Shown here piece after piece: positions 8,714 to 24,283 of a stretch of 49,810 nucleotides of DNA; the stretch's first letter is position 1, and every line of letters begins with the position of its first letter. The notes beneath the pieces were generated by a model, which saw only the letters and a list, made by a program, of their open reading frames with translations, did not search any database and was not told the origin of the DNA. The position numbers and the translations under genes were made by a program. The DNA comes from Comamonadaceae bacterium (lineage in GTDB: Bacteria; Pseudomonadota; Gammaproteobacteria; Burkholderiales; Burkholderiaceae_C). The DNA is taken from NCBI GenBank assembly GCA_027491035.1, contig JAIXWZ010000045.1, positions 1 to 49,810 on the forward strand, read 5' to 3'.

Positions 8714-9632
8714 GGGGGCTCCTCAGGGGTCGCAGGTTGGGGGCGCTCTTGGGCTCGCGCAAGATGGTGGCTAGCACGCCGCTGGCGGTGATGAGCACCA
8801 TGCCCAGCCAGCCGATGAGTGGGATCTGGTCGCCAAACAGCAGCAGGCTGTAGAAGGCGCCGAAAACGATGCCACTGTACTGCAGGTTGGCCACCACCAA
8901 GGTAGCGCCTTGCCGGTAGGCGCGGGTCATGCACCACTGTCCGATGGTGGCCAGCACCCCCATGGGCACCAACCACAGCGCAGCCATCGTGTTCAGGCTG
9001 GAGAAGTCGAGTGCGGCGCTGGCCAGGCCGCCAAAGAGTGCGCAGGCCAGTCCGAAGAAAAGCACCGTGCGCTCGTCGGGCTCGCCCATGCGGCCCAGCG
9101 TGGTCACCTGCAAATAGGCCAGCGCCGACAGCAGACCCGACACCAGGCCGATCAAGCCGGCAAGCAGCTGCTGCTGCTCCAGCGTCGGCCGCAGAACCAT
9201 GACCACGCCAACAAAGCCGGCCAGCACCGCCAGCATCAGCGGGGCCTGCTGCGGCGCGCGTGACCGGCCCAGCAGCCATTGGCTGCCGACGAGGAATGCG
9301 CCCACCCAGACGCTGCTCATGTAGTTGAGGGTGATGGCGGTGGCCAGCGGCAAGCCGGCAATGGCCACAAACCAGGCCGTCAGCGCAACCACGCCGGTGA
9401 CGCTGCGCCAGGCATGGGCTGCTGGCACCTGGGTGCGCCAGGTCAGAGCGCGCAGGCGCAAGGCGGCGGCCATGATGAGCGCGCTGATGATGCCGCGGTA
9501 GAACACCAGCTCGGCGGCGTGGAAGTGCTCGCTGGCGTACTTGACGCACACGCCCATGGTGGCAAAGGCCAGGGAGCCCAGCAGCATCCACAGCGCCCCC
9601 CGTGAGGAGACGCCCAGCGCGGTGGCGCTCAA
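8688..9632 (-). CDS. EamA/DMT superfamily exporter
   Basis: About 314 residues with ten hydrophobic segments in two EamA repeats (first starting LWMLLGSLAFATMGVCVKYA, second after the ERTVLFFGLACALFGG region). DMT proteins of this length are metabolite exporters; the substrate is not readable. The preferred start is TTG at 9632, which overlaps the stop of the Rieske gene in a TTGA junction and leaves a short N-terminus before the first membrane helix. The next ATG, at 9587, would cut into that helix. The C-terminal tail overlaps the start of the sulfurtransferase, so the three genes are probably translationally linked. Confidence 0.85.
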   Translation of the reverse strand: MSATALGVSSRGALWMLLGSLAFATMGVCVKYASEHFHAAELVFYRGIISALIMAAALRLRALTWRTQVPAAHAWRSVTGVVALTAWFVAIAGLPLATAITLNYMSSVWVGAFLVGSQWLLGRSRAPQQAPLMLAVLAGFVGVVMVLRPTLEQQQLLAGLIGLVSGLLSALAYLQVTTLGRMGEPDERTVLFFGLACALFGGLASAALDFSSLNTMAALWLVPMGVLATIGQWCMTRAYRQGATLVVANLQYSGIVFGAFYSLLLFGDQIPLIGWLGMVLITASGVLATILREPKSAPNLRPLRSPRVHHTDHR

Positions 9633-10747
9633 ATGCTCTGGGTGGTCTTGGTGGCGCCCATTTCGCGCCGATACCACTCGTGAAAGTGCTGCATGCCGTC
9701 TTCCATGGGGCTCTGGTAGGGGCCGAACTCGTCGTCGCCGCGCTCGAGCAGGGCCAGGCGGCCGGCGTCCATGCGCTGCGCGATCTCGTCGTCTTCGACG
9801 CAGGTTTCCATGTAAGCGGCCTGCTGCGCCTCGACGAACTCGCGCTCGAAGGCGCAAATCTCTTCGGGGTAGTAAAACTCGATCAAGTTGAGCGTCTTGT
9901 TGGGCCCCTGCGGATGCAAGCTGCTGACCACCAGCACATGCGGGTACCACTCGACCATGATGTGCGGATAGCAGGTCAGCCAGATCGCGCCGTACTTGGG
10001 CGGCTCGCCGCTGCGGTACTGCAGCACCACATCGTGCCACTTCTTGTAGACGTCGGTGCCGGGCTTGCCCAGCTTGTCGGACACGCCCACGGTCTGCACC
10101 GAGTAGTGCTGGCCCAGCTGCCAGCGCAGGTCGTCGCAGGTGACGAAATTGCCCAGCCCTGGGTGAAACGGCCCGACGTGGTAGTCCTCGAGGTAGACCT
10201 CGATGAAGGTTTTCCAGTTGTAGTTGCACTCGTGCAGCTGGACCCGATCGAGCTGGTAGCCGGCAAAGTCCAGATCGGCCTGCGCGGTCATGCCGGCCAG
10301 ATCGGCTGCCACGTCCCGGCCGTTGTCCTCAAAAATCAGACCGTTCCAGCGGGTGGTTTTGTAGCGGTTGAGGTTTAGGCACGGGTCGGTTTGAAAATGC
10401 GGCGCGCCGATGAGTTCGCCCCGGGTGTCATAGGTCCAGCGGTGCAGCGGGCAGACGATGTTGCTGCCGGTGTTGCCCCGTCCCTTGAGCATCACCGCCT
10501 GGCGGTGGCGGCAGACATTGGAGATCAGCTCGATGCCCGCTGCATTGCGCACCAGAGCGCGGCCTTCGGACTCTTGCGGCAGAGCGTAGAAGTCACCGAG
10601 TTCGGGCACTGCCAGCTCGTGGCCCAGGTACCGCGGTCCGCGGGCAAACAGCTTTTGCCGCTCGCGCTCGTACAAGGACGGATCGAAGTAGCTGCTGACG
10701 GGCAGCTGGCTGGTCGCTTGCAACAGGCGTAGGCTCAGGTCGGACAT
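9629..10747 (-). CDS. Rieske-type ring-hydroxylating oxygenase, alpha subunit
   Basis: A 372-residue oxygenase large subunit. The Rieske [2Fe-2S] ligands are C79-x-H81 and C99-x2-H102 (CRHRQ...CPLHRW). The mononuclear iron site is in NWKTFIEVYLEDYHVGPFH, with H190 and H195; the third carboxylate ligand would lie later (near the ERGDDEFGPYQ region). It resembles the phenylpropionate/choline-type dioxygenase alpha subunits, so the substrate may be an aromatic acid or a quaternary amine. No ferredoxin reductase is adjacent. It is the first gene of the minus-strand unit; upstream is a 252-nt region shared divergently with xseB. Confidence 0.88.
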   Translation of the reverse strand: MSDLSLRLLQATSQLPVSSYFDPSLYERERQKLFARGPRYLGHELAVPELGDFYALPQESEGRALVRNAAGIELISNVCRHRQAVMLKGRGNTGSNIVCPLHRWTYDTRGELIGAPHFQTDPCLNLNRYKTTRWNGLIFEDNGRDVAADLAGMTAQADLDFAGYQLDRVQLHECNYNWKTFIEVYLEDYHVGPFHPGLGNFVTCDDLRWQLGQHYSVQTVGVSDKLGKPGTDVYKKWHDVVLQYRSGEPPKYGAIWLTCYPHIMVEWYPHVLVVSSLHPQGPNKTLNLIEFYYPEEICAFEREFVEAQQAAYMETCVEDDEIAQRMDAGRLALLERGDDEFGPYQSPMEDGMQHFHEWYRREMGATKTTQSI

Positions 10748-12182: not shown

Positions 12183-12212
12183 GGCCGGCCCTTGCATTTC
12201 GAGGAGCACCGC

Positions 12213-14105
12213 ATGCATGCCTTGCTTGAATCCATCCACAGCCCGGCCGATGTGCGCCGGCTCGGGCGCGCCGACCTGCCTGAGCTGGCGCAGCAGTTGC
12301 GCGCCTATTTGCTTGAGAGCGTCGCGCGAACTGGCGGCCACCTGAGCTCCAATCTGGGGACGGTCGAGCTGACGGTGGCGCTGCACTATGTGTTCAACAC
12401 CCCGCACGATCGGCTGGTGTGGGACGTGGGCCACCAGACCTATCCCCACAAGATCCTGACGGGCCGGCGCGAGCGCATGTCCAGCCTGCGCCAGCTCGGG
12501 GGCCTGTCGGGCTTTCCCAGGCGCGAGGAGAGTGAGTACGACACTTTCGGGACGGCCCACTCGTCGACGTCGATCTCGGCGGCTCTGGGCATGGCGCTGG
12601 CGGCCAAGCAAAAAGGCGAGGAGCGCCGTGCTGTGGCCATCATTGGCGACGGCGCGATGAGTGCGGGCATGGCGTTTGAGGCGCTCAACAACGCGGGCGT
12701 GGCCGACTGCAATGTGCTGGTGGTGCTCAACGACAACGACATGAGCATCAGCCCGCCCGTCGGCGCGCTCAACCGCTACCTGGCCCAGCTCATGAGCGGG
12801 CAGTTTTATGCGGCCGCCAAGAACATGGGCAAGCAGATGCTCAAGGCGGCCCCACCCCTGTTCGAGCTGGCCAAGCGCCTGGAGTCGCATGCCAAGGGCA
12901 TGGTGGTGCCGGCCACTTTGTTCGAGAACTTCGGTTTCAACTACATCGGCCCGATCGACGGCCATGACCTCGACTCCCTGATCCCGACCCTCGAGAACAT
13001 CCGCCAGCTCAAAGGCCCGCAGTTTTTGCATGTGGTGACCAAAAAGGGCCAGGGCTACAAGCTGGCCGAGGCCGACCCCATCGCCTACCACGGACCGGGC
13101 AAATTCGATCCGGCGGTGGGCCTGACCAAGAGCAGCGCGCCGGCCAAGCCCACCTTCACCCAGGTGTTTGGCCGCTGGCTGTGTGACATGGCCGAGCACG
13201 ATATGCGTCTGGTGGGCATCACGCCGGCCATGCGCGAGGGCTCGGGCATGGTCGAGTTTCACCAGCGCTTTCCCGGGCGCTACCACGACGTGGGCATCGC
13301 CGAGCAGCATGCGGTCACTTTTGCCGCCGGCCTGGCCTGTGAGGGGCTCAAGCCGGTGGTGGCGATTTACTCCACGTTTTTGCAGCGCGGCTACGACCAG
13401 CTCATTCACGACGTGGCATTGCAAAACCTGCCGGTGGTCTTTGCGCTCGATCGCGCCGGCTTGGTTGGCGCTGATGGGGCCACGCATGCGGGCGCCTACG
13501 ACATCGCTTACATCCGCTGCATTCCCAATATGGCGCTGGCCTGCCCGGCCGATGAAAACGAATGCCGCAAGCTGTTGACCACAGCTTATGAGCAAAACCA
13601 CCCGGTGGCGGTGCGCTACCCGCGCGGTGCCGGCGCTGGCGTGGCCATCGAGCCTGGGCTGCAGGCCTTGCCCTACGGCAAGGGCGAGCTTGCCTTGGCC
13701 GGCTCGGGTGTGGCGATCTTGGCCTTCGGCACCTTGCTCTACCCGGCCCTGGAGGCCGCCCGCAAGCTCGGCGCGACGGTGGTCAATATGCGCTGGGCCA
13801 AACCCATTGACACGGCTTTGCTGCTAGAGGTCGCGGCCTCGCATCAGGGCTTGGTCACGCTCGAAGAGGGCGCGATCATGGGCGGTGCCGGAAGCGCTGT
13901 GGGCGAGGCCTTGGCTCAGGCCGGCGTGGCCGTGCCGCTGCTGCAACTGGGCCTGCGCGACGAGTTCATCGAGCATGGCGATCCGGCCCTGCTGCTGGCC
14001 GCCCAGGGCCTCGACGCCGCCGGCATTGAGGCCTCGGTGCGCGCGCGCTTTGGCGATCTGCTCGGCCAGGGGCTGGGCAAGCCAGGCCTGAAGTCCGTGG
14101 CCTGA
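12213..14105 (+). CDS. dxs: 1-deoxy-D-xylulose-5-phosphate synthase
   Basis: Thiamine-diphosphate enzyme joining pyruvate and glyceraldehyde 3-phosphate, the entry step of the MEP isoprenoid pathway. The 630 residues cover the whole family length. Visible motifs: [32 protein letters not shown], the TPP/Mg motif [28 protein letters not shown], and in the pyrimidine domain [16 protein letters not shown] and [21 protein letters not shown] at 12201-12206 supports ATG 12213. It follows ispA by 30 nt and precedes the EgtB/SenA-like gene by 28 nt. The product feeds both the phytoene and the phytyl/geranylgeranyl pools used by the photosynthesis genes in this window. Confidence 0.97.
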
Positions 14106-14133: not shown

Positions 14134-15411
14134 ATGACCGGTCCCTTGCCGGCCCGTTTGCCCGATCACAGCGACAGCGCGCGCTGGCTCGACACGCCGC
14201 TCATCCGCCAGGCCGGCCCCGAGGTCTTGTCGTTGGCGCTCATGAATGCGCGCAACCACACCCTGGCTCTGCTCGAACCGTTTGAACAGGCCATGGCTGC
14301 CGGCTGGCGCGCCCAGCCGCATCCGGCCTTGCCCGCGCCGCAGTGGTTGGTCGGTCGCATCGGCTGGTTTCAGGAGCGCTGGATCTTGCGCAACCTTCAG
14401 CGCAGCCGCGGGGCCGCCTGTGATCCGGCGGCGATCCGGCTGGCACCGCTGCGCCCGCAAGCCGACTTGTGGTGGCAGGCCGAGCCGCCGGCCGGTGTGC
14501 AGATGACCTGCCCCATCGATTTTGAGCCATTGCGCGGCGATCTGCTGCAAATTCTGGAGAGCACGCTCGACTTGCTGGCTGGCGCGGCGCACAGTGACGA
14601 GGCGCTTTATTTTTACCGGCTGGCCCTGCACCACGAGGACGTGCGGGCCGAGCAATTGGTGCAGATCATGCAGGCTCAGGGGCTGCCGATTGAGCGCCGC
14701 TGGCGCGAGCGCTGGAGCGCGCCGGCGCTGACCGCGCGCGAGCCGCTGTGGCTGCCGGCCAGTCGGGCCGAGCTGGGCAGCAGCGGGCCTGGGTTTGCGT
14801 TTGACAACGAGCAGCCTGCGCACCGGCTCGATGTGCCTGAGTTTGAAATCGACGCGCAGCCCGTGTGCTGGGCCCAGTACCTGGAGTTCGTCGACGATGG
14901 CGGCTACGACCGGCAGGAGCTGTGGGCGCCCGGCGGCTGGGACTGGTTGCAGGCGCTGGCCCAGGGCGAGGGCCGGCGCGCGCCCCGTCACGTCGAGCAG
15001 ATCGGCGTGGCCAGCGGCGCCGTGATGCAAACCCGCTTTGGCCAGCCCACCCGTATGGCGGCGCAGCAGCCGGTGATGCATGTCAGCTGGTGGGAGGCCG
15101 ACGCCTGGTGCCGCTGGGCGGGTCGGCGGTTGCCGCTGGAGCCCGAATGGGAGTTGGCGGCCAGCGCGGCCAGCTCGCGCGGCTTTCGCTGGGGCGATGT
15201 GTGGGAATGGACGGCCAGCCGCTTTGCACCCTACGAGGGCTTTGTCAGCGGACCCGACGCCAGCCACACGCTCGACGGTTTGGGTCGCACCCGGGTGCTG
15301 CGCGGTGGCTCGCGCGTGAGCGCCTCGCGTCTGAAGTCGCCGCGCTTGCGCCACTTCGCTGCGCCCGAGCGCGACGACCTGTTCTGCGGCTTTCGCTCCT
15401 GCGCGGTCTGA
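14134..15411 (+). CDS. EgtB/SenA-like sulfoxide/selenoxide-synthase family protein, iron site degenerate
   Basis: A 425-residue protein with an N-terminal DinB-like helical domain (about 1-190) and a C-terminal formylglycine-generating-enzyme-like domain (about 205-425: QPVMHVSWWEADAWCRWAG, RLPLEPEWELAA, WEWTAS, RVLRGGS, FCGFRSC). This is the architecture of ergothioneine synthase EgtB and selenoneine synthase SenA; EALYFYRLAL-HHED recalls the SenA-like branch. In those enzymes iron is held by a His in GHxxWFQE and by HX3HXE. Here the first is G-R75-IGWFQE and the second reads H167-EDV-R171-A-E173, so two of three ligands are arginine. The codons are clear (cgc 14356, cgg 14644) and the frame is intact. 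No senB, senC, egtD or egtC is adjacent. The catalytic role is therefore doubtful. It is 28 nt after dxs and 12 nt before tupB. Confidence 0.75.
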   Translation: MTGPLPARLPDHSDSARWLDTPLIRQAGPEVLSLALMNARNHTLALLEPFEQAMAAGWRAQPHPALPAPQWLVGRIGWFQERWILRNLQRSRGAACDPAAIRLAPLRPQADLWWQAEPPAGVQMTCPIDFEPLRGDLLQILESTLDLLAGAAHSDEALYFYRLALHHEDVRAEQLVQIMQAQGLPIERRWRERWSAPALTAREPLWLPASRAELGSSGPGFAFDNEQPAHRLDVPEFEIDAQPVCWAQYLEFVDDGGYDRQELWAPGGWDWLQALAQGEGRRAPRHVEQIGVASGAVMQTRFGQPTRMAAQQPVMHVSWWEADAWCRWAGRRLPLEPEWELAASAASSRGFRWGDVWEWTASRFAPYEGFVSGPDASHTLDGLGRTRVLRGGSRVSASRLKSPRLRHFAAPERDDLFCGFRSCAV

Positions 15412-15423
15412 GCCGGGCCCGTC

Positions 15424-16179
15424 ATGACGTCATTGCACGAGAGTTTGCTGCTCGCTGTGGGCCTGATTGCAGGGCTGGACGCGCAGCTTGCCGCCATCGT
15501 GCTGCGCTCGCTGGCCGTCAGCGGCCTGGCCTGTCTGCTCGCTTGCGCCTTGGGCCTGCTGCTCGGTGCCTGGCTTGCGGTGAGCCGATTTGCCGGCCGT
15601 GCGGCCCTGCTGGCGCTGCTCAACACCCTCTTGGCGCTGCCTTCGGTGGTGGTCGGGCTGATCGTCTATCTCATGCTTTCGCGCTCAGGGCCGCTGGGTT
15701 TTTTGGGTTGGCTGTTTTCTTTCAAGGCCATGGTGCTGGCGCAGACGCTGCTGGTGCTGCCGGTGGTGGTGGCGCTGACGCGCCAGTTGGTCGAAGACGC
15801 CGATGCCGACCATGGCGAGGCCCTGCGCTCCATGGGCGCCGGCCCTTTTTGGCGTGGTCTGATCCTGCTGTGGGACGAGCGCCATGCGCTGGCCACGGCC
15901 GTGTTGACCAGCTTCGGCCGTGCGATCTCTGAGGTCGGGGCGGTGATGGTGGTGGGCGGCAATATCGAGGGTTTTACCCGCGTCATGACCACCGCCATCG
16001 CGCTCGAAACCAGCAAGGGCGACCTGCCGCTGGCGCTGGCCCTGGGCTTGGTGCTGCTGATGGTGGTGCTCGTGCTCAATGTGCTGCTCGCTGTGCTGGC
16101 ACGTTGGCGCCGCCGTCTTGATGGACGGGCGTCGTCGTCTGCCAGTCCCCATGCTTGGGCCCAGGCAGGCCCCAGATGA
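15424..16179 (+). CDS. tupB: tungstate ABC transporter permease
   Basis: A 251-residue inner-membrane permease with five to six hydrophobic segments. The cytoplasmic EAA-type loop (HGEALRSMGAGPFWRGLIL, about 138-156) contacts the ATPase. SEVGAVMVVGGNIEGFTRVMTTAIALETSKGDLPLA is highly characteristic of TupB-type tungstate permeases as opposed to molybdate ModB. Together with TupC and TupA below, it imports tungstate for cofactor biosynthesis. It begins 12 nt after the EgtB/SenA-like gene and ends in an ATGA overlap with tupC, so it is part of a continuous transcription unit. Confidence 0.88.
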   Translation: MTSLHESLLLAVGLIAGLDAQLAAIVLRSLAVSGLACLLACALGLLLGAWLAVSRFAGRAALLALLNTLLALPSVVVGLIVYLMLSRSGPLGFLGWLFSFKAMVLAQTLLVLPVVVALTRQLVEDADADHGEALRSMGAGPFWRGLILLWDERHALATAVLTSFGRAISEVGAVMVVGGNIEGFTRVMTTAIALETSKGDLPLALALGLVLLMVVLVLNVLLAVLARWRRRLDGRASSSASPHAWAQAGPR

Positions 16180-16865
16180 GTCCGATGCTGTTTGAGTTGG
16201 ACCAGGTCGGTGTGCGTTTCGGCGCGGCCTGGGCGCTGCGCGATTGCACGCTGCGCATTGAGGCGGGCGAGTCCGTCGCCCTGGTGGGCGGGAACGGCAG
16301 CGGCAAGAGCACCTTGCTGCGCTGCCTGCACGGCTTGCAAGAGGTCAGCGCCGGGCGCATGGCGCGCGCACCGGTGCCCCAGGCGATGGTGTTTCAGCGC
16401 CCCTTTGTGCTGCGCAGCAGCGCGCGCAGCAATATTGCGCTGGCGCTGTGGCTGCGCGGTGTGCCCTGGCGCCAGGGCCTCGAGCGAGCCGCTGCCGCCC
16501 TTGAGCGGGTGGGTCTGGCCCAGCAGGCCAGGTGCAACGCGCGCACGCTCTCGGGCGGCCAGCAGCAGCGCCTGGCGCTGGCACGCGCCTGGGCGCTGCA
16601 GGCGCAGGTGCTGCTGCTCGACGAGCCCACCGCGGCCCTGGATCCGGCCGGCAAGCGCGAGGTCGAACACTTGATGGCGCAGTTCGCCCAAGCCGGCATG
16701 ACGCTGATTTTTGCCAGTCACAATCTCGGCCAGGTCAAGCGCTTGGCCGATCGGGTGCTCTACCTCGAAGAGGGCCGCTTGCAGGTCGATTGGCCTGCGC
16801 AGCGTTTTTTCAGCGATCGGCTGCCCGATGGGGCGGCAGCTTTTCTCAAAGGGGAGTCGGTTTGA
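16176..16865 (+). CDS. tupC: tungstate ABC transporter ATP-binding protein
   Basis: A 229-residue ABC ATPase: Walker A GGNGSGKST (about 38-46), Q-loop in VFQRPFVLRSS, signature LSGGQQQRLALARA, Walker B VLLLDEPTAALD, and switch His in FASHNLGQ. The FQRPFVLRRS-type Q-loop and short length are usual for TupC/WtpC. ATG 16176 overlaps the tupB stop (ATGA); the 3' end overlaps tupA in a TTGA junction. Confidence 0.88.
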   Translation: MSPMLFELDQVGVRFGAAWALRDCTLRIEAGESVALVGGNGSGKSTLLRCLHGLQEVSAGRMARAPVPQAMVFQRPFVLRSSARSNIALALWLRGVPWRQGLERAAAALERVGLAQQARCNARTLSGGQQQRLALARAWALQAQVLLLDEPTAALDPAGKREVEHLMAQFAQAGMTLIFASHNLGQVKRLADRVLYLEEGRLQVDWPAQRFFSDRLPDGAAAFLKGESV

Positions 16866-17689
16866 AACGCTTGTGGTGGGCTTTTGTGTGCGCCTGGATC
16901 GCGCTGCCAGCGGCGCTGGCTCAGGTTCCGGCCATCGTGCTGGCCTCGACCACCTCGACCGAGCAGTCGGGTTTGTTTGCCCACCTGTTGCCCCAGTTTC
17001 AGCGGGCCACAGGCATTGCGGTCAAGGTGGTGGCGGTGGGCTCGGGCCAGGCCATTGACATGGCCCGTCGGGGCGACGCCGATGTGCTGCTGGCCCATGA
17101 TCCGCCGGCCGAAGAGCGGCTGGTGGCCGAGGGTTTTGCGCTGCGGCGCATGCCGGTGATGTACAACGACTTCGTGCTGATTGGGCCGGCGGCCGACCCG
17201 GCACGCGCGCGCGGCAGCGACATCGTGCAGGCCTTGCGGCAGGTTCGCGATCAGCGCGCCCTGTTTGTCTCGCGCGGCGACCGCAGCGGCACCCATGCGG
17301 CCGAGCTGCGTTTTTGGCAGCAGGCCCAGGTCGACGTTGCTGCGCTGGCCGCCTACCGGGCCTGCGGCTGCGGCATGGGTCCGGCGCTCAATATGGCCGC
17401 CAGCTTGGACGCTTACACACTGGCCGATCGCGGTACCTGGCTGGCTTTTGGCAACCGGGCCGCTCTGGCCCTGCTGGTCGAGGGCGACCGGCGCTTGTTC
17501 AATCCCTACGGGGTGATGGCGGTCAATCCGGCCAAGCATCCGCATGTCAAGCATGCGCAGGCGCAGCAGTTTGTCGACTGGATCACCGGGGCGGCCGGTC
17601 AGGCTGCGATCGCTGCTTTTCGCATGGGCGGGCAGCCCCTGTTTTTTCCCAACGCGGCCCCCGTCCCCAACGTCTCTAAAAGCCCCTGA
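16862..17689 (+). CDS. tupA: tungstate ABC transporter periplasmic binding protein
   Basis: A 275-residue periplasmic protein. The signal peptide (KRLWWAFVCAWIALPAALAQ) is cleaved near residue 21. ASTTSTEQSGLF at the mature N-terminus is the oxyanion-binding TTTS motif of TupA; VGSGQAIDMARRGDADVLL and SRGDRSGTH follow. The family binds tungstate tightly and selectively over molybdate. Start TTG 16862 overlaps the tupC TGA (TTGA), and the signal peptide begins immediately, so this start is well supported. Confidence 0.88.
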   Translation: MKRLWWAFVCAWIALPAALAQVPAIVLASTTSTEQSGLFAHLLPQFQRATGIAVKVVAVGSGQAIDMARRGDADVLLAHDPPAEERLVAEGFALRRMPVMYNDFVLIGPAADPARARGSDIVQALRQVRDQRALFVSRGDRSGTHAAELRFWQQAQVDVAALAAYRACGCGMGPALNMAASLDAYTLADRGTWLAFGNRAALALLVEGDRRLFNPYGVMAVNPAKHPHVKHAQAQQFVDWITGAAGQAAIAAFRMGGQPLFFPNAAPVPNVSKSP

Positions 17690-20330: not shown

Positions 20331-20519
20331 GCAGGGTCTGCAACACCGCGTCAGCTTGAGTCTGGCGTGAATTTCGGTTTCCGCCCACGCCGCGCTAGGG
20401 TTTGTCCTCGGTGATTCCGACCGTCCTTCTCCAACAATTGGCTTAGAGTTGTCGGTTTGAGCGACTTCAGGTCCATCGCGGACGTTTTCTTTTTGAGGCA
20501 GGACAGGAGAGGACACCCC

Positions 20520-20993
20520 ATGCAAATAGAACTTAAGGTCAACGGCAAGAGCCAGCAGGCTGACGTGCCAGCGCACACCCTGCTGGTGCAACTCATCCGT
20601 GAGAAGCTGCAACTGACCGGCACCCATGTCGGCTGTGACACCGCCCAGTGCGGCGCGTGCACCGTGTTGATGAACGGCCATGCGGTCAAGTCCTGCAATG
20701 TGCTGGCCGCCCAGGCCCACGGCGCAGAAGTGACCACCATCGAGGGTCTGGCCGCAAGCGACGGCACCATGCACCCGATGCAGGCTGCCTTCAAGGACTG
20801 CCATGGTCTGCAGTGCGGCTTTTGCACCACCGGCATGGTGATGAGCGCAGTCGACCTGTGCCACAAGCACCCGGGTGCCGGCGCCGGTGAAATCCGTGAG
20901 TTGCTCGAGGGCAACATCTGCCGTTGCACGGGCTACCAGAACATCGTCAAGGCTGTCGAGCAGGGCGGTCGGGCCATGAAGGCGGCCGCTTGA
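20520..20993 (+). CDS. molybdenum hydroxylase [2Fe-2S] subunit (CoxS-like)
   Basis: A 157-residue iron-sulfur subunit of the xanthine-oxidase family. The plant-type cluster uses C39, C44, C47 and C59; the second cluster uses C99, C102, C134 and C136 (CGFCTTG and CRCTGYQNI). It passes electrons from the molybdenum site to FAD. The gene order small-large-medium, with this gene first, is that of form II CODH-like enzymes. AGGAGAGGA lies 5-10 nt before the ATG. The 189 nt upstream (20331-20519) contain no gene and no clear promoter I can defend. Confidence 0.9.
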   Translation: MQIELKVNGKSQQADVPAHTLLVQLIREKLQLTGTHVGCDTAQCGACTVLMNGHAVKSCNVLAAQAHGAEVTTIEGLAASDGTMHPMQAAFKDCHGLQCGFCTTGMVMSAVDLCHKHPGAGAGEIRELLEGNICRCTGYQNIVKAVEQGGRAMKAAA

Positions 20994-21086
20994 GAAGCGG
21001 TCACGTTTGAATGTTTTCTCGCTTCGGTGCCGGCTGCCTGATTCTGCGGTCCGGTGCTTGAGCCTCTTCATTTATGGAGTCAAGAC

Positions 21087-23462
21087 ATGGGTGCTTCCGA
21101 TTTCACCAAACTGCCGCACATAGGCGAGGCCCTCAAGCGCAAAGAGGACTATCGCTACCTGACTGGCGGCGGGCAATACACCGATGACATCACGCTGGCG
21201 GCGCAGTGCCACGCGGTGTTCGTGCGCTCGCCCCACGCCCACGCCCGCATCAAGTCCATTGACACGTCGGCTGCAAAAGCAGCGCCGGGTGTCCTTGAGG
21301 TCTACACCGGCGAGCATGTGGCCGCCGACAAGATCGGCGGTCTGCCATGCGGCTGGCTCATCAACAACCCCGATGGCACGCCCATGAAGGAGCCGCCCCA
21401 TCCGATCTTGGCCCAAGGCAAGGTGCGCTATGTGGGTGACCATGTGGCCATGGTGGTGGCCCAGACGCTGGAGCAGGCCAAGAATGCGGCCGAGCAGGTT
21501 CAGGTCGACTACGAGGTGCTGGGCAGCGTGGTGCGCGTGACCGATGCCGCCAAGGCGCCGGCCCTGCACGATGCGGCGCCCGACAACCATTGCTACAAGT
21601 GGGCCATCGGTGACAAGTCGCAGGTCGATGCGGCCTTTGCCCAGGCCGCCCACGTGACCCGGCTCGATCTGGTCAACAACCGCTTGATTCCCAATGCCAT
21701 GGAGCCACGTGCGGCCATTGGCAGCTACAGCCGGGCCACCGAGGAATACACCCTTTACGTGTCCAATCAGAACCCGCACGTCGAGCGGCTCTTGATGACC
21801 GCCTTCGTGATGGGCCTGCCCGAGCACAAGGTCAGGGTCATCGCGCCCGATGTCGGCGGTGGTTTTGGCTCCAAGATCTATCTCTACGCCGAGGACGTCT
21901 GCCTGACTTGGGCGGCCAAGAAGCTCAACCGCAGCATCAAGTGGACGGCCGAGCGCAGCGAGTCTTTTGTGAGCGATGCCCACGGGCGCGACCATGTCAG
22001 CCACGCTGAAATGGCCCTGGACAAGGACGGCAAATTCCTCGCGCTGCGGGTGCACACCCATGCCAATTTGGGCGCCTACCTGTCCACCTTTGCGACCGCG
22101 GTGCCCACCATCTTGTATGCCACTTTGCTGGCTGGGCAGTACGCCACGCCGCAGATCTACGTCGAAGTCGACGCCTGGTTCACCAACACCGCACCGGTCG
22201 ATGCCTACCGCGGCGCCGGCCGGCCCGAGGCGACCTACCTGCTCGAGCGTTTGGTCACGCGGGCGGCTTGGGAAACCGGTCTGGGTCAGGATGAGATTCG
22301 CCGGCGCAACATGATCCGCAGCTTCCCGTACCAGACCCCGGTGGCCTTGCAGTACGACACCGGTGACTTCCCGGCTTTGCTCGAGCGCAGCAATGAGCTG
22401 GCCGAGGTGGCCGGCTTTGCGCAGCGCAAGGCGGCCTCCGAAGCCAAAGGTCTGCTGCGCGGCATCGGTTACTCCAGCTACATCGAAGCCTGCGGCATTG
22501 CGCCGAGCAATATCGCTGGCGCCCTGGGCGCGCGTGCCGGTTTGTTCGAGTGCGGCGAGATCCGGGTGCACCCGACTGGCAGCGTGACGGTCTTTACTGG
22601 CTCGCACAGCCATGGCCAGGGCCACGAAACCACCTTTGCACAGGTCGTGGCCGCCCGTCTGGGCATCTCGCCCGATCAGGTCGATGTGGTGCATGGCGAC
22701 ACGGGCCGCGTGCCCTTTGGCATGGGCACCTATGGCTCGCGCTCGCTGGCCGTGGGCGGCACCGCCATCATGAAGGCGCTCGACAAAATCGAGGCCAAGG
22801 CCAAGAAGATCGCGGCTCACCTGATGGAGGCCAGCGATGCCGACATCGACTTCGTCGGTGGTGAGTTCATCGTGCGCGGCACCGACAAGAAGATCCCCTT
22901 CGGTCAGGTGGCGCTCACGGCCTATGTGCCGCACAACTACCCTCTCGACAAGCTCGAGCCGGGCCTGAACGAAACCGCCTTCTACGACCCGACCAACTTC
23001 ACCTTCCCGGCCGGCACCTACATCTGCGAGGTCGAGGTCGATCCGGCCACCGGCGTGGTGCGTCTGGACCGCTTCACCGCGGTCGACGACTTTGGCAACA
23101 TCATCAACCCCATGATTGTTGAGGGCCAGGTTCATGGCGGGCTGGTGCAGGGCATCGGCCAGGCGCTGATGGAAAACTGCATTTATGACCCCGAGTCCGG
23201 GCAGCTGCTGACCGGCTCCTTCATGGACTACGCCATGCCGCGTGCGGACGACGTGCCCGATTTCCGGCTCGACACCCTGGTCACGCCTTGCACCCATAAT
23301 CCGCTGGGTGCCAAGGGCTGCGGCGAGGCCGGTGCCATCGGCTCGCCGCCGGCGGTCATCAATGCGGTGCTCGATGCGCTGCGGCCGTTGGGCGTCAAAG
23401 ATCTGGACATGCCGGCTTCGCCAGCACGCGTCTGGCAGGCCATTGAGTCGGCCAAGCACTAA
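21087..23462 (+). CDS. molybdenum hydroxylase large subunit (form II CoxL-like)
   Basis: A 791-residue molybdopterin-binding catalytic subunit. The CODH-discriminating loop reads AYRGAGR at residues 373-379, the form II signature; true CO oxidisers carry AYxCSFR. The catalytic Glu is E747 in [28 protein letters not shown] and the [15 protein letters not shown] loop bind the cofactor. It should hydroxylate an aldehyde or N-heterocycle, using water as oxygen source; CO is unlikely. It is followed 26 nt later by the FAD subunit. The cofactor could be supplied by molybdate, whose transporter is not in this window. Confidence 0.9.
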
Positions 23463-23488
23463 GCAGACAAGAACAGGAGAAAAGCAAA

Positions 23489-24283
23489 ATGTATCCCTTC
23501 ACCCTCGAACGCCCAACCTCCAGCGCCGATGCGGTCAAGCTTGCCGGCGCGGGCGGCCGCCCCCTGGCCGGCGGCCAGACCCTGCTCGCTTCGATGAAGC
23601 TGCGCCTGACCAGTGCCGATCAATTGGTTGATCTGAGCGGCGTCAAGGAATGGACCGGCATTTGCCGCGATGGCGACGCCTTGGTCATCGGTGCCATGAC
23701 GCGTCATGCCGACGTGGCCAGCCACGCCGATGTCAAGGCCCTGATTCCGGCTCTGGCCGACCTGGCCGGCAACATCGGTGATCGCCAGGTGCGCGCCATG
23801 GGCACGCTGGGCGGATCGGTGGCCAACAACGACCCGGCCGCCTGCTACCCCAGCGCGGTGCTGGCGCTGGGCGCCACCGTGCACACCAACAGCCGCAAGA
23901 TCGCAGCTGACGACTTTTTCAAAGGCATGTTCAGCACCGCGCTGCAAGACGGCGAGTTGATCACCGCGATCAGCTTTCCCATCCCCAAGCGTGCGGCTTA
24001 CATGAAGTTCAAGCAGCCTGCCTCGCGTTTCGCGATGGTCGGCGTGTTCTTGGCTCAGTTTGCCAGCGGCGTGCGCGTGGCGATCACCGGCGCGTCCAGC
24101 GACGGCGTGTTCCGTCACGCTGGCCTGGAGCAGGCGCTGTCGGCCAGCTTTACCGCGCAGGCAGCGGCCGGCGTGAAAATCGACGCCAGCGGTCTGAACC
24201 AGGACATCCACGCCTCGGCGGCCTACCGCGCCAATCTCATCAGCGTGCAAACCCAGCGCGCCGTGACCAAAGCCCTGGCCTGA
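23489..24283 (+). CDS. molybdenum hydroxylase FAD subunit (CoxM-like)
   Basis: A 264-residue flavoprotein of the CoxM/XdhB type. FAD-binding motifs are AGGQTLLASMKLRL (about 28-40) and TLGGSVANNDPAACYP (about 107-122). The C-terminal domain (about 160-264) carries FAMVGVFLAQFASGVRVAITGAS. It completes the S-L-M trimer and hands electrons to an unknown acceptor. AGGAGA precedes the ATG. Downstream to 24570 there is only repeat DNA. Confidence 0.9.
   Translation: MYPFTLERPTSSADAVKLAGAGGRPLAGGQTLLASMKLRLTSADQLVDLSGVKEWTGICRDGDALVIGAMTRHADVASHADVKALIPALADLAGNIGDRQVRAMGTLGGSVANNDPAACYPSAVLALGATVHTNSRKIAADDFFKGMFSTALQDGELITAISFPIPKRAAYMKFKQPASRFAMVGVFLAQFASGVRVAITGASSDGVFRHAGLEQALSASFTAQAAAGVKIDASGLNQDIHASAAYRANLISVQTQRAVTKALA

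Follow-up and report, generated by a model that had tools for sequence, protein, structure and literature searches.

A SenA-like protein without the iron and catalytic residues in a Comamonadaceae bacterium, and its relatives

The gene at positions 14134–15411 (+) of a 49,810-nucleotide stretch of DNA from a Comamonadaceae bacterium (the window, by which the whole stretch is meant) was found to encode a SenA-derived protein of 425 aa in which the iron site and the catalytic Tyr are lost. The protein is probably a pseudoenzyme that was disarmed after its selenosugar supplier had been lost or replaced and was kept for an iron-independent binding or regulatory role. The change is not peculiar to the window protein; it recurs elsewhere in step with the loss or replacement of SenB.

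Fold and active site of the window protein

The open reading frame is complete and has no internal stops. Against the NCBIfam profiles the protein was nearest to SenA (NF041186, 361.2 bits, under the cut-off of 420), followed by EgtB (TIGR03440, 205.6 bits, under the cut-off of 360) and OvoA; its C-terminal domain matched PF03781 (115.9 bits), and the nearest solved structures were those of SenA of Variovorax paradoxus (8k5i, 8k5j, 8ryz). An AlphaFold2 model (62 sequences, pLDDT 88.1) was compared with hercynine-bound SenA (8k5j) and matched it over the whole length (TM 0.86/0.91, rmsd 2.2, 38% identity). On this model the protein is predicted to have the two-domain fold of SenA, in agreement with the original prediction, which had claimed the ergothioneine/selenoneine synthase fold over the full length and proposed a structure prediction as a check.

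The replacement of two iron-binding His by Arg, also claimed there, was borne out in a gap-free alignment with intact SenA and actinobacterial EgtB. R75 (codon CGC, 14356–14358, +) occupies the first iron His column, that of GHxxWFQE, and R171 (CGG, 14644–14646, +) the third, that of the second His of HExxHxE; H167 (CAC, 14632–14634, +) is the single ligand His retained, and the triad reads R75, H167, R171 in place of H75, H167, H171 of intact SenA. The three positions align with H51, H134 and H138 of MthEgtB, and D375 (15256–15258, +) with its catalytic Y377 (mapped via actinobacterial EgtB aligned to 4x8b; the numbers were hand-counted and are one off the chain index). The codons are clear and the gene is free of a frameshift, as had been stated. 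A sequencing error is unlikely, as a second genome of the genus, G034, has the same R/R pair in a protein 89% identical. That genome also holds a second partial copy at a contig end (G034:C55:5-283; first 93 residues, 87%).

The dismantling extends beyond these residues to several that the earlier claim did not name. The catalytic Tyr column, occupied by Tyr in 51 of 52 intact rows (sample described below), holds D375; H378 (15265–15267, +) and H407 (15352–15354, +) stand where all 52 intact rows have Tyr and Asn, respectively, and only F408 is retained of the hercynine residues Y378, N407 and F408. Columns 378 and 407 are those of M401Y and Q430N in OvsA (read off the ungapped alignment), and OvsA M401Y/Q430N/A431F is, according to the title of entry 8ux5, a hercynine-binding variant with selenoneine activity. 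H119, R122 and W123, conserved in intact rows, are lost as well. Judged from the aligned residues, this wider loss supports the suggestion that the protein may bind no iron and may act as a pseudoenzyme or binding protein.

For MthEgtB Y377F, the available part of PMC10903977 describes strongly lowered sulfoxide synthesis and a cysteine dioxygenase activity that stays. The available part of PMC13426267 concerns EgtB evolved for a non-native reaction: in the variant CHF1, activity was abolished and the iron content lowered when H51 or H134 was changed to D/E/A, and some activity stayed when H138 was changed to A/D/E; in another such variant, CHF2, the H138 mutants had hardly any fluorination left; Y377W was selected in the directed evolution. 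From the mutants of CHF1 and CHF2 it follows that R75 alone should be severe and that R171 alone might not be.

Relatives and recurrence of the loss

A match to the window protein (E 1e-3) was present in 49 of 61 sampled genomes. The alignment of 110 rows was made up of 30 from the sampled genomes and the best 80 of at least 433 relatives in named genomes; this sample is tied to similarity to the window protein, so that decayed copies are disfavoured, and many of the genomes are incomplete drafts. The iron ligands were HHH in 59 rows and other in 51. After removal of 9 duplicates, 101 distinct rows were left, mostly from Comamonadaceae, 52 of them intact and 49 without the His triad (broken). 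In the broken rows, position 171 was R (31), Q (14), V (2) or C (2) and never His; position 375 was W (33), D (10), C (2), G (2), H (1) or N (1). Neither Y375 nor S116, each present in 51 of the 52 intact rows, occurred in any broken row. H75 or H167 was lost in addition in 18 of the 49 and both were held in 31; the copy of Polaromonas sp. JS666 has H75, F167, R171 and W375. Of 187 positions conserved to at least 95% in intact rows, 129 were held at 90% or more in the broken ones, a third being loosened, and 141 were kept in at least 8 of the 9 rows of the window clade.

A clade with conserved R/R replacements had been put forward as a check. A window clade of nine rows was indeed found, all with D375, but the replacements within it vary: R75 in five rows and E or Q in four, Q171 in seven and R171 in two, with the R/R pair itself in 2 of 9. 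A conserved new R/R ligand set was rejected, as R171 occurs in just two of the nine. In the five R75 rows (L005, L006, L004, L003, L001), H166 and R394 are fixed alongside R75, which gives the impression of a pocket remade with positive charge. The case that the true ligand His lie elsewhere, named at the outset as a refuting one, was also dismissed: the alignment contains no shifted His conserved across the broken rows.

A separate observation concerns a large clade of broken SenAs from Variovorax, Ramlibacter and Rhodoferax (rows L070, L074, L078, L081, L082, L084, L087, L088, L090-L092, L095, L097, L101-L111, L114), which mostly keeps H75 and H167 and has R171 and W375; Q80 is replaced by A or S and W357 by H, R or Q. 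From these residues, a two-His site is possibly present there.

A tree of 110 rows was built with nine second SenAs (see below) as outgroup and with 13 active-site columns blanked. The His triad was lost nine times on it, five of the losses being forced by well-supported branches, and 200 bootstrap trees required 8–9 changes; a quick tree made from the full set of columns required 7, of which 6 were forced. It is very improbable that the recurrence is overstated, i.e., that the broken proteins have one or few origins and were scattered by the tree. That reading draws on the five forced losses, which are just 5 of 9, and on the long branches of several broken rows and of the outgroup; against it, a tree with all broken rows in a single clade was rejected with the 13 columns removed (log-likelihood 214 lower, p-AU 4.4e-6), the bootstrap trees agree on the number of changes, and broken and intact loci have neighbour genes in common.

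The first steps over the nine losses were Trp (5), Asp (2), Cys (1) and Asn (1) at position 375, and Arg (5), Gln (3) and Cys (1) at position 171. Since Tyr to Trp takes two base changes, its recurrence suggests selection rather than drift; Cys, found at 375 in L055 and L069, is a possible one-step intermediate. The likeness of the natural Trp375 to the Y377W selected in EgtB may be a coincidence. Ten positions conserved to at least 90% in intact rows were lost in at least five of the nine losses (115, 116, 170, 171, 361, 375, 382, 407, 409, 415), and three of them (171, 375, 407) are catalytic or pocket residues.

These residues also bear on the proposal that the broken proteins are metalloenzymes with new chemistry, binding iron or a different metal with a reduced or altered set of ligands, with Tyr to Trp tuning the reaction. 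The candidate ligands would be H167, H166 and E173 in the window protein and the H75/H167 dyad, which might bind iron, in most broken relatives; the proposal gains from the 31 rows that keep this dyad, from Trp375 in 5 of 9 losses and the fixed H166 of the R75 rows, and from the H138 mutants of CHF1 that stayed active and the selected Y377W, both in the available part of PMC13426267. It is nevertheless unlikely. H75 or H167 is gone in the 18 rows mentioned, on several branches, and the same part of that source has MthEgtB lose activity and iron without either H51 or H134, and the CHF2 H138 mutants nearly without fluorination; moreover, the replacements vary (R/E/Q/Y at 75, R/Q/V/C at 171), and the window clade has D375, not Trp.

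SenB, other partners and gene order

In the window genome (90% complete) the best SenB match scored 49.5 bits (cut-off 300), with none at 1e-30; EgtD, above its cut-off in 44 of 61 genomes of the genus, gave no match, and an EgtB-like gene was not found. In the four other genomes with R75, one of which (G013) is rated 100% complete, neither SenB nor EgtD was above cut-off; these four and the window genome each had one SenA-family match at 1e-30. The window genome retains a selenophosphate synthetase match (302 bits, G000:C6:8028-8954) within an open frame of 768 aa, perhaps a fused selenophosphate synthetase. That the protein is still a synthase of the selenoneine, ergothioneine or ovothiol type, with iron ligands from elsewhere in the protein or from a partner, is hardly credible: the overall fold and many SenA residues are retained, which speaks for it, but the catalytic Tyr and the hercynine residues are also gone, no shifted His is conserved across the broken rows, and neither the window genome nor its four R75 relatives yielded a SenB, EgtD or EgtB-like gene.

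Among the relatives, SenB was found within the examined stretch at 27 of 59 intact loci and at none of 51 broken ones (the stretches were not of equal length). Genome-wide, for 100 rows (L101 left out; states compiled by hand), SenB accompanied 49 of 52 intact copies; with the broken copies it was either missing (35 of 48) or present together with a second SenA (13 of 48). The three intact rows without SenB were the incomplete drafts L008 and L076 and, in addition, L100, which has the His triad together with W375, A116 and C382 and looks transitional by its residues.

The second SenA adjoins SenB in 11 of the 13 genomes (one copy is cut by a contig end); in G119 it lies 3.7 kb from SenB on the same contig, and in G021 it is only a C-terminal fragment of 68 residues on another contig. 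All nine second SenAs aligned (the G142 copy was left out) keep H75, S116, H167, H171, Y375, Y378, W382, N407 and F408. In a fresh check of 13 new SenB-bearing genomes of the genus, 13 of 13 were intact at 75, 167, 171, 375, 378 and 407, and no new broken copy was met. In 14 SenB-less genomes of the genus, a SenA-family gene was present in nine (8 broken, 1 intact) and none was found in five, from which it follows that the gene is dispensable. An independent-pairs test of the SenB link gave 5 supported pairs and none against the trend (median p 0.25); with this number of pairs significance is out of reach. A role as partner subunit of an intact SenA was rejected, as 35 of 48 broken rows are without SenB and the window clade has a single SenA-family match.

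Two further observations were made on these genes. The SenA of G028 (L126, about 9128-10376), which adjoins an intact SenB, reads in two frames, by a frameshift or an assembly error. EgtD and SenB are adjacent to each other and away from SenA at G018:C119:16337-18228 and also in G005, G009, G030, G077, G079 and G084, a different arrangement of the sen genes within the genus.

In the window, dxs (12192–14105, +; TIGR00204, 873.5 bits, cut-off 466) lies directly 5' of the SenA-like gene, which is followed by genes for a TupB-like ABC permease of the tungstate/molybdate type (15424–16179, +; NF038017, 228 bits, cut-off 100; TupB equivalog 168.8 bits, below its cut-off of 320), an ABC ATPase (16155–16865, +; no equivalog above its cut-off among the best 25 matches listed) and a TupA-like substrate-binding protein (16811–17689, +, start approximate; TupA equivalog 204.8 bits, below its cut-off of 400). 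The same-strand gaps of 28 bp from the dxs stop and 12 bp to the permease ORF agree with the tight operon described earlier, and dxs and the SenA-like gene are likely on one transcript. Farther downstream (20457–24283) are genes for the small, large and FAD-type subunits of a molybdenum hydroxylase; the large subunit scored 664.6 bits against a CO dehydrogenase cut-off of 991.

In the window clade, dxs was directly 5' of the gene at 8 of 9 loci, 22–62 bp away (stop codon counted); at the ninth, the contig begins too near the gene to show it. In relatives the order is dxs, TRAP transporter genes, selD, senB and senA, with a ModE-like gene and tupBCA coming next (gene names beyond the profile matches of the window are the author's reading of the sequences). 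As far as sequence comparison goes, dxs-TRAP-selD-senB-senA is the ancestral order. Most relatives have genes between dxs and senA, selD and senB among them, that the window lineage has lost; their deletion probably placed the orphan gene under the dxs transcript. selD remains within the examined stretch at 9 of 48 broken loci (L122, L049, L054, L069, L055, L064, L070, L078, L089).

A link in function with either the tungstate transporter or the genes of the molybdenum hydroxylase was considered and rejected, as intact and broken loci have a common neighbourhood. In the neighbourhood table, which leaves out six loci whose SenA gene the ORF picking missed, tupB was near the gene at 23 of the 39 intact loci and 27 of the 48 broken ones, and coxS at 5 and 10 of these, respectively; tupB was absent beside the gene at three of the nine window-clade loci (L119, L036, L038). 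The tupB neighbourhood looks like an inherited order.

Constraint, preferred reading and comparison with known systems

Close broken pairs (dS 0.1–0.5, n = 12) gave dN/dS 0.116–0.285 (median 0.17), close intact pairs (same range, n = 26) 0.075–0.277 (median 0.15), and the window gene against G034 0.18; none of the 101 rows, the 49 broken ones included, had an internal stop. The claim that the gene is maintained rather than decaying is upheld by the purifying selection in close pairs and by these unbroken frames. Over all pairs of dS 0.1–1.0 the median dN/dS was 0.39 for broken (805 pairs) and 0.19 for intact rows (427 pairs), so that constraint on the broken proteins looks weaker over wider distances; these pairs lack independence, and many of the broken ones join rows from separate losses.

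Slow decay, in which the function went with SenB and the frame is merely still unbroken, is accordingly a quite improbable account. It would explain why the ligand and pocket positions have wandered to a variety of residues, why wider pairs have the higher dN/dS and why the gene was not found in 5 of 14 SenB-less genomes of the genus. It does not sit well with the dN/dS of 0.12–0.29 in the 12 close broken pairs and the absence of a stop in 49 broken rows, with a window clade of nine rows on deep branches whose frames are intact throughout, with the return of one and the same two-base change, Tyr to Trp, in 5 of the 9 losses, which is unlike drift, or with retention in 12 genomes that also have a second, intact SenA (and in one more with a fragment only).

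The best reading is that of a disarmed SenA kept for another job, which accounts for the partner rule, the order of the losses and the constraint. SenB, the selenosugar supplier, would have been lost, or a second sen cassette would have taken over, and SenA would have been left without a productive reaction. With iron bound and no donor at hand, SenA may consume thiols and oxygen, as the Y377F result lets one suppose. Disarming would then have been tolerated or favoured, in the order Tyr375 and Ser116, His171, and His75 or His167, and an iron-independent function of the same scaffold would have kept the gene; as a guess, this is small-molecule binding or regulation, seated in the former pocket or where the two domains meet.

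Disarming on several occasions suggests that intact SenA already had a second role. More tentatively, SenA of Comamonadaceae may be a two-job protein whose iron-free job is the one retained. On this view the old SenA was disarmed on each loss of SenB or arrival of a second sen cassette (at 375, Tyr to Trp or Asp; at 171, His to Arg or Gln) and would live on as a new family, so far without a name, of binding or regulatory proteins that are free of iron. If the second function exists, this would be a rare case of natural experiments, run repeatedly, in which the catalytic and non-catalytic roles of an enzyme come apart.

Selenoneine synthesis was described recently (Kayrouz et al., as cited in the available part of PMC10702425). 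The literature searched, with most subscription journals outside its coverage, contained no description of a SenA- or EgtB-derived pseudoenzyme or of an inactive protein related to EgtB, FGE or ergothioneine; the earlier statement that such a variant has no described role stands within that coverage. Some proteins of the broken type pass the 420-bit SenA cut-off (Polaromonas jejuensis, 475.8 bits; Polaromonas sp. JS666, 461 bits), and genome-based counts of selenoneine producers may therefore include non-makers.

Compared with SenA, the window protein is alike in full-length homology, in the two-domain fold predicted for it and in 38% identity in the structural alignment, and intact orthologues in relatives (54–60% identity) adjoin SenB; it differs in the replacement of two iron His, the catalytic Tyr and two hercynine residues, in a profile score of 361 bits against 420, and in a genome where neither SenB nor EgtD was found. 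With EgtB and OvoA/OvsA it has superfamily and fold in common, but these are farther from it than SenA, and the same catalytic residues are missing from it. The formylglycine-generating enzyme (FGE) is matched by the C-terminal domain only through PF03781; FGE has no DinB-like N-terminal domain and uses copper and cysteines. As in pseudoenzymes generally, an enzyme fold has been retained under selection after the catalytic residues went; what sets the present case apart is a recurrence across lineages that matches the loss or replacement of one pathway partner, together with the repeated change of Tyr to Trp.
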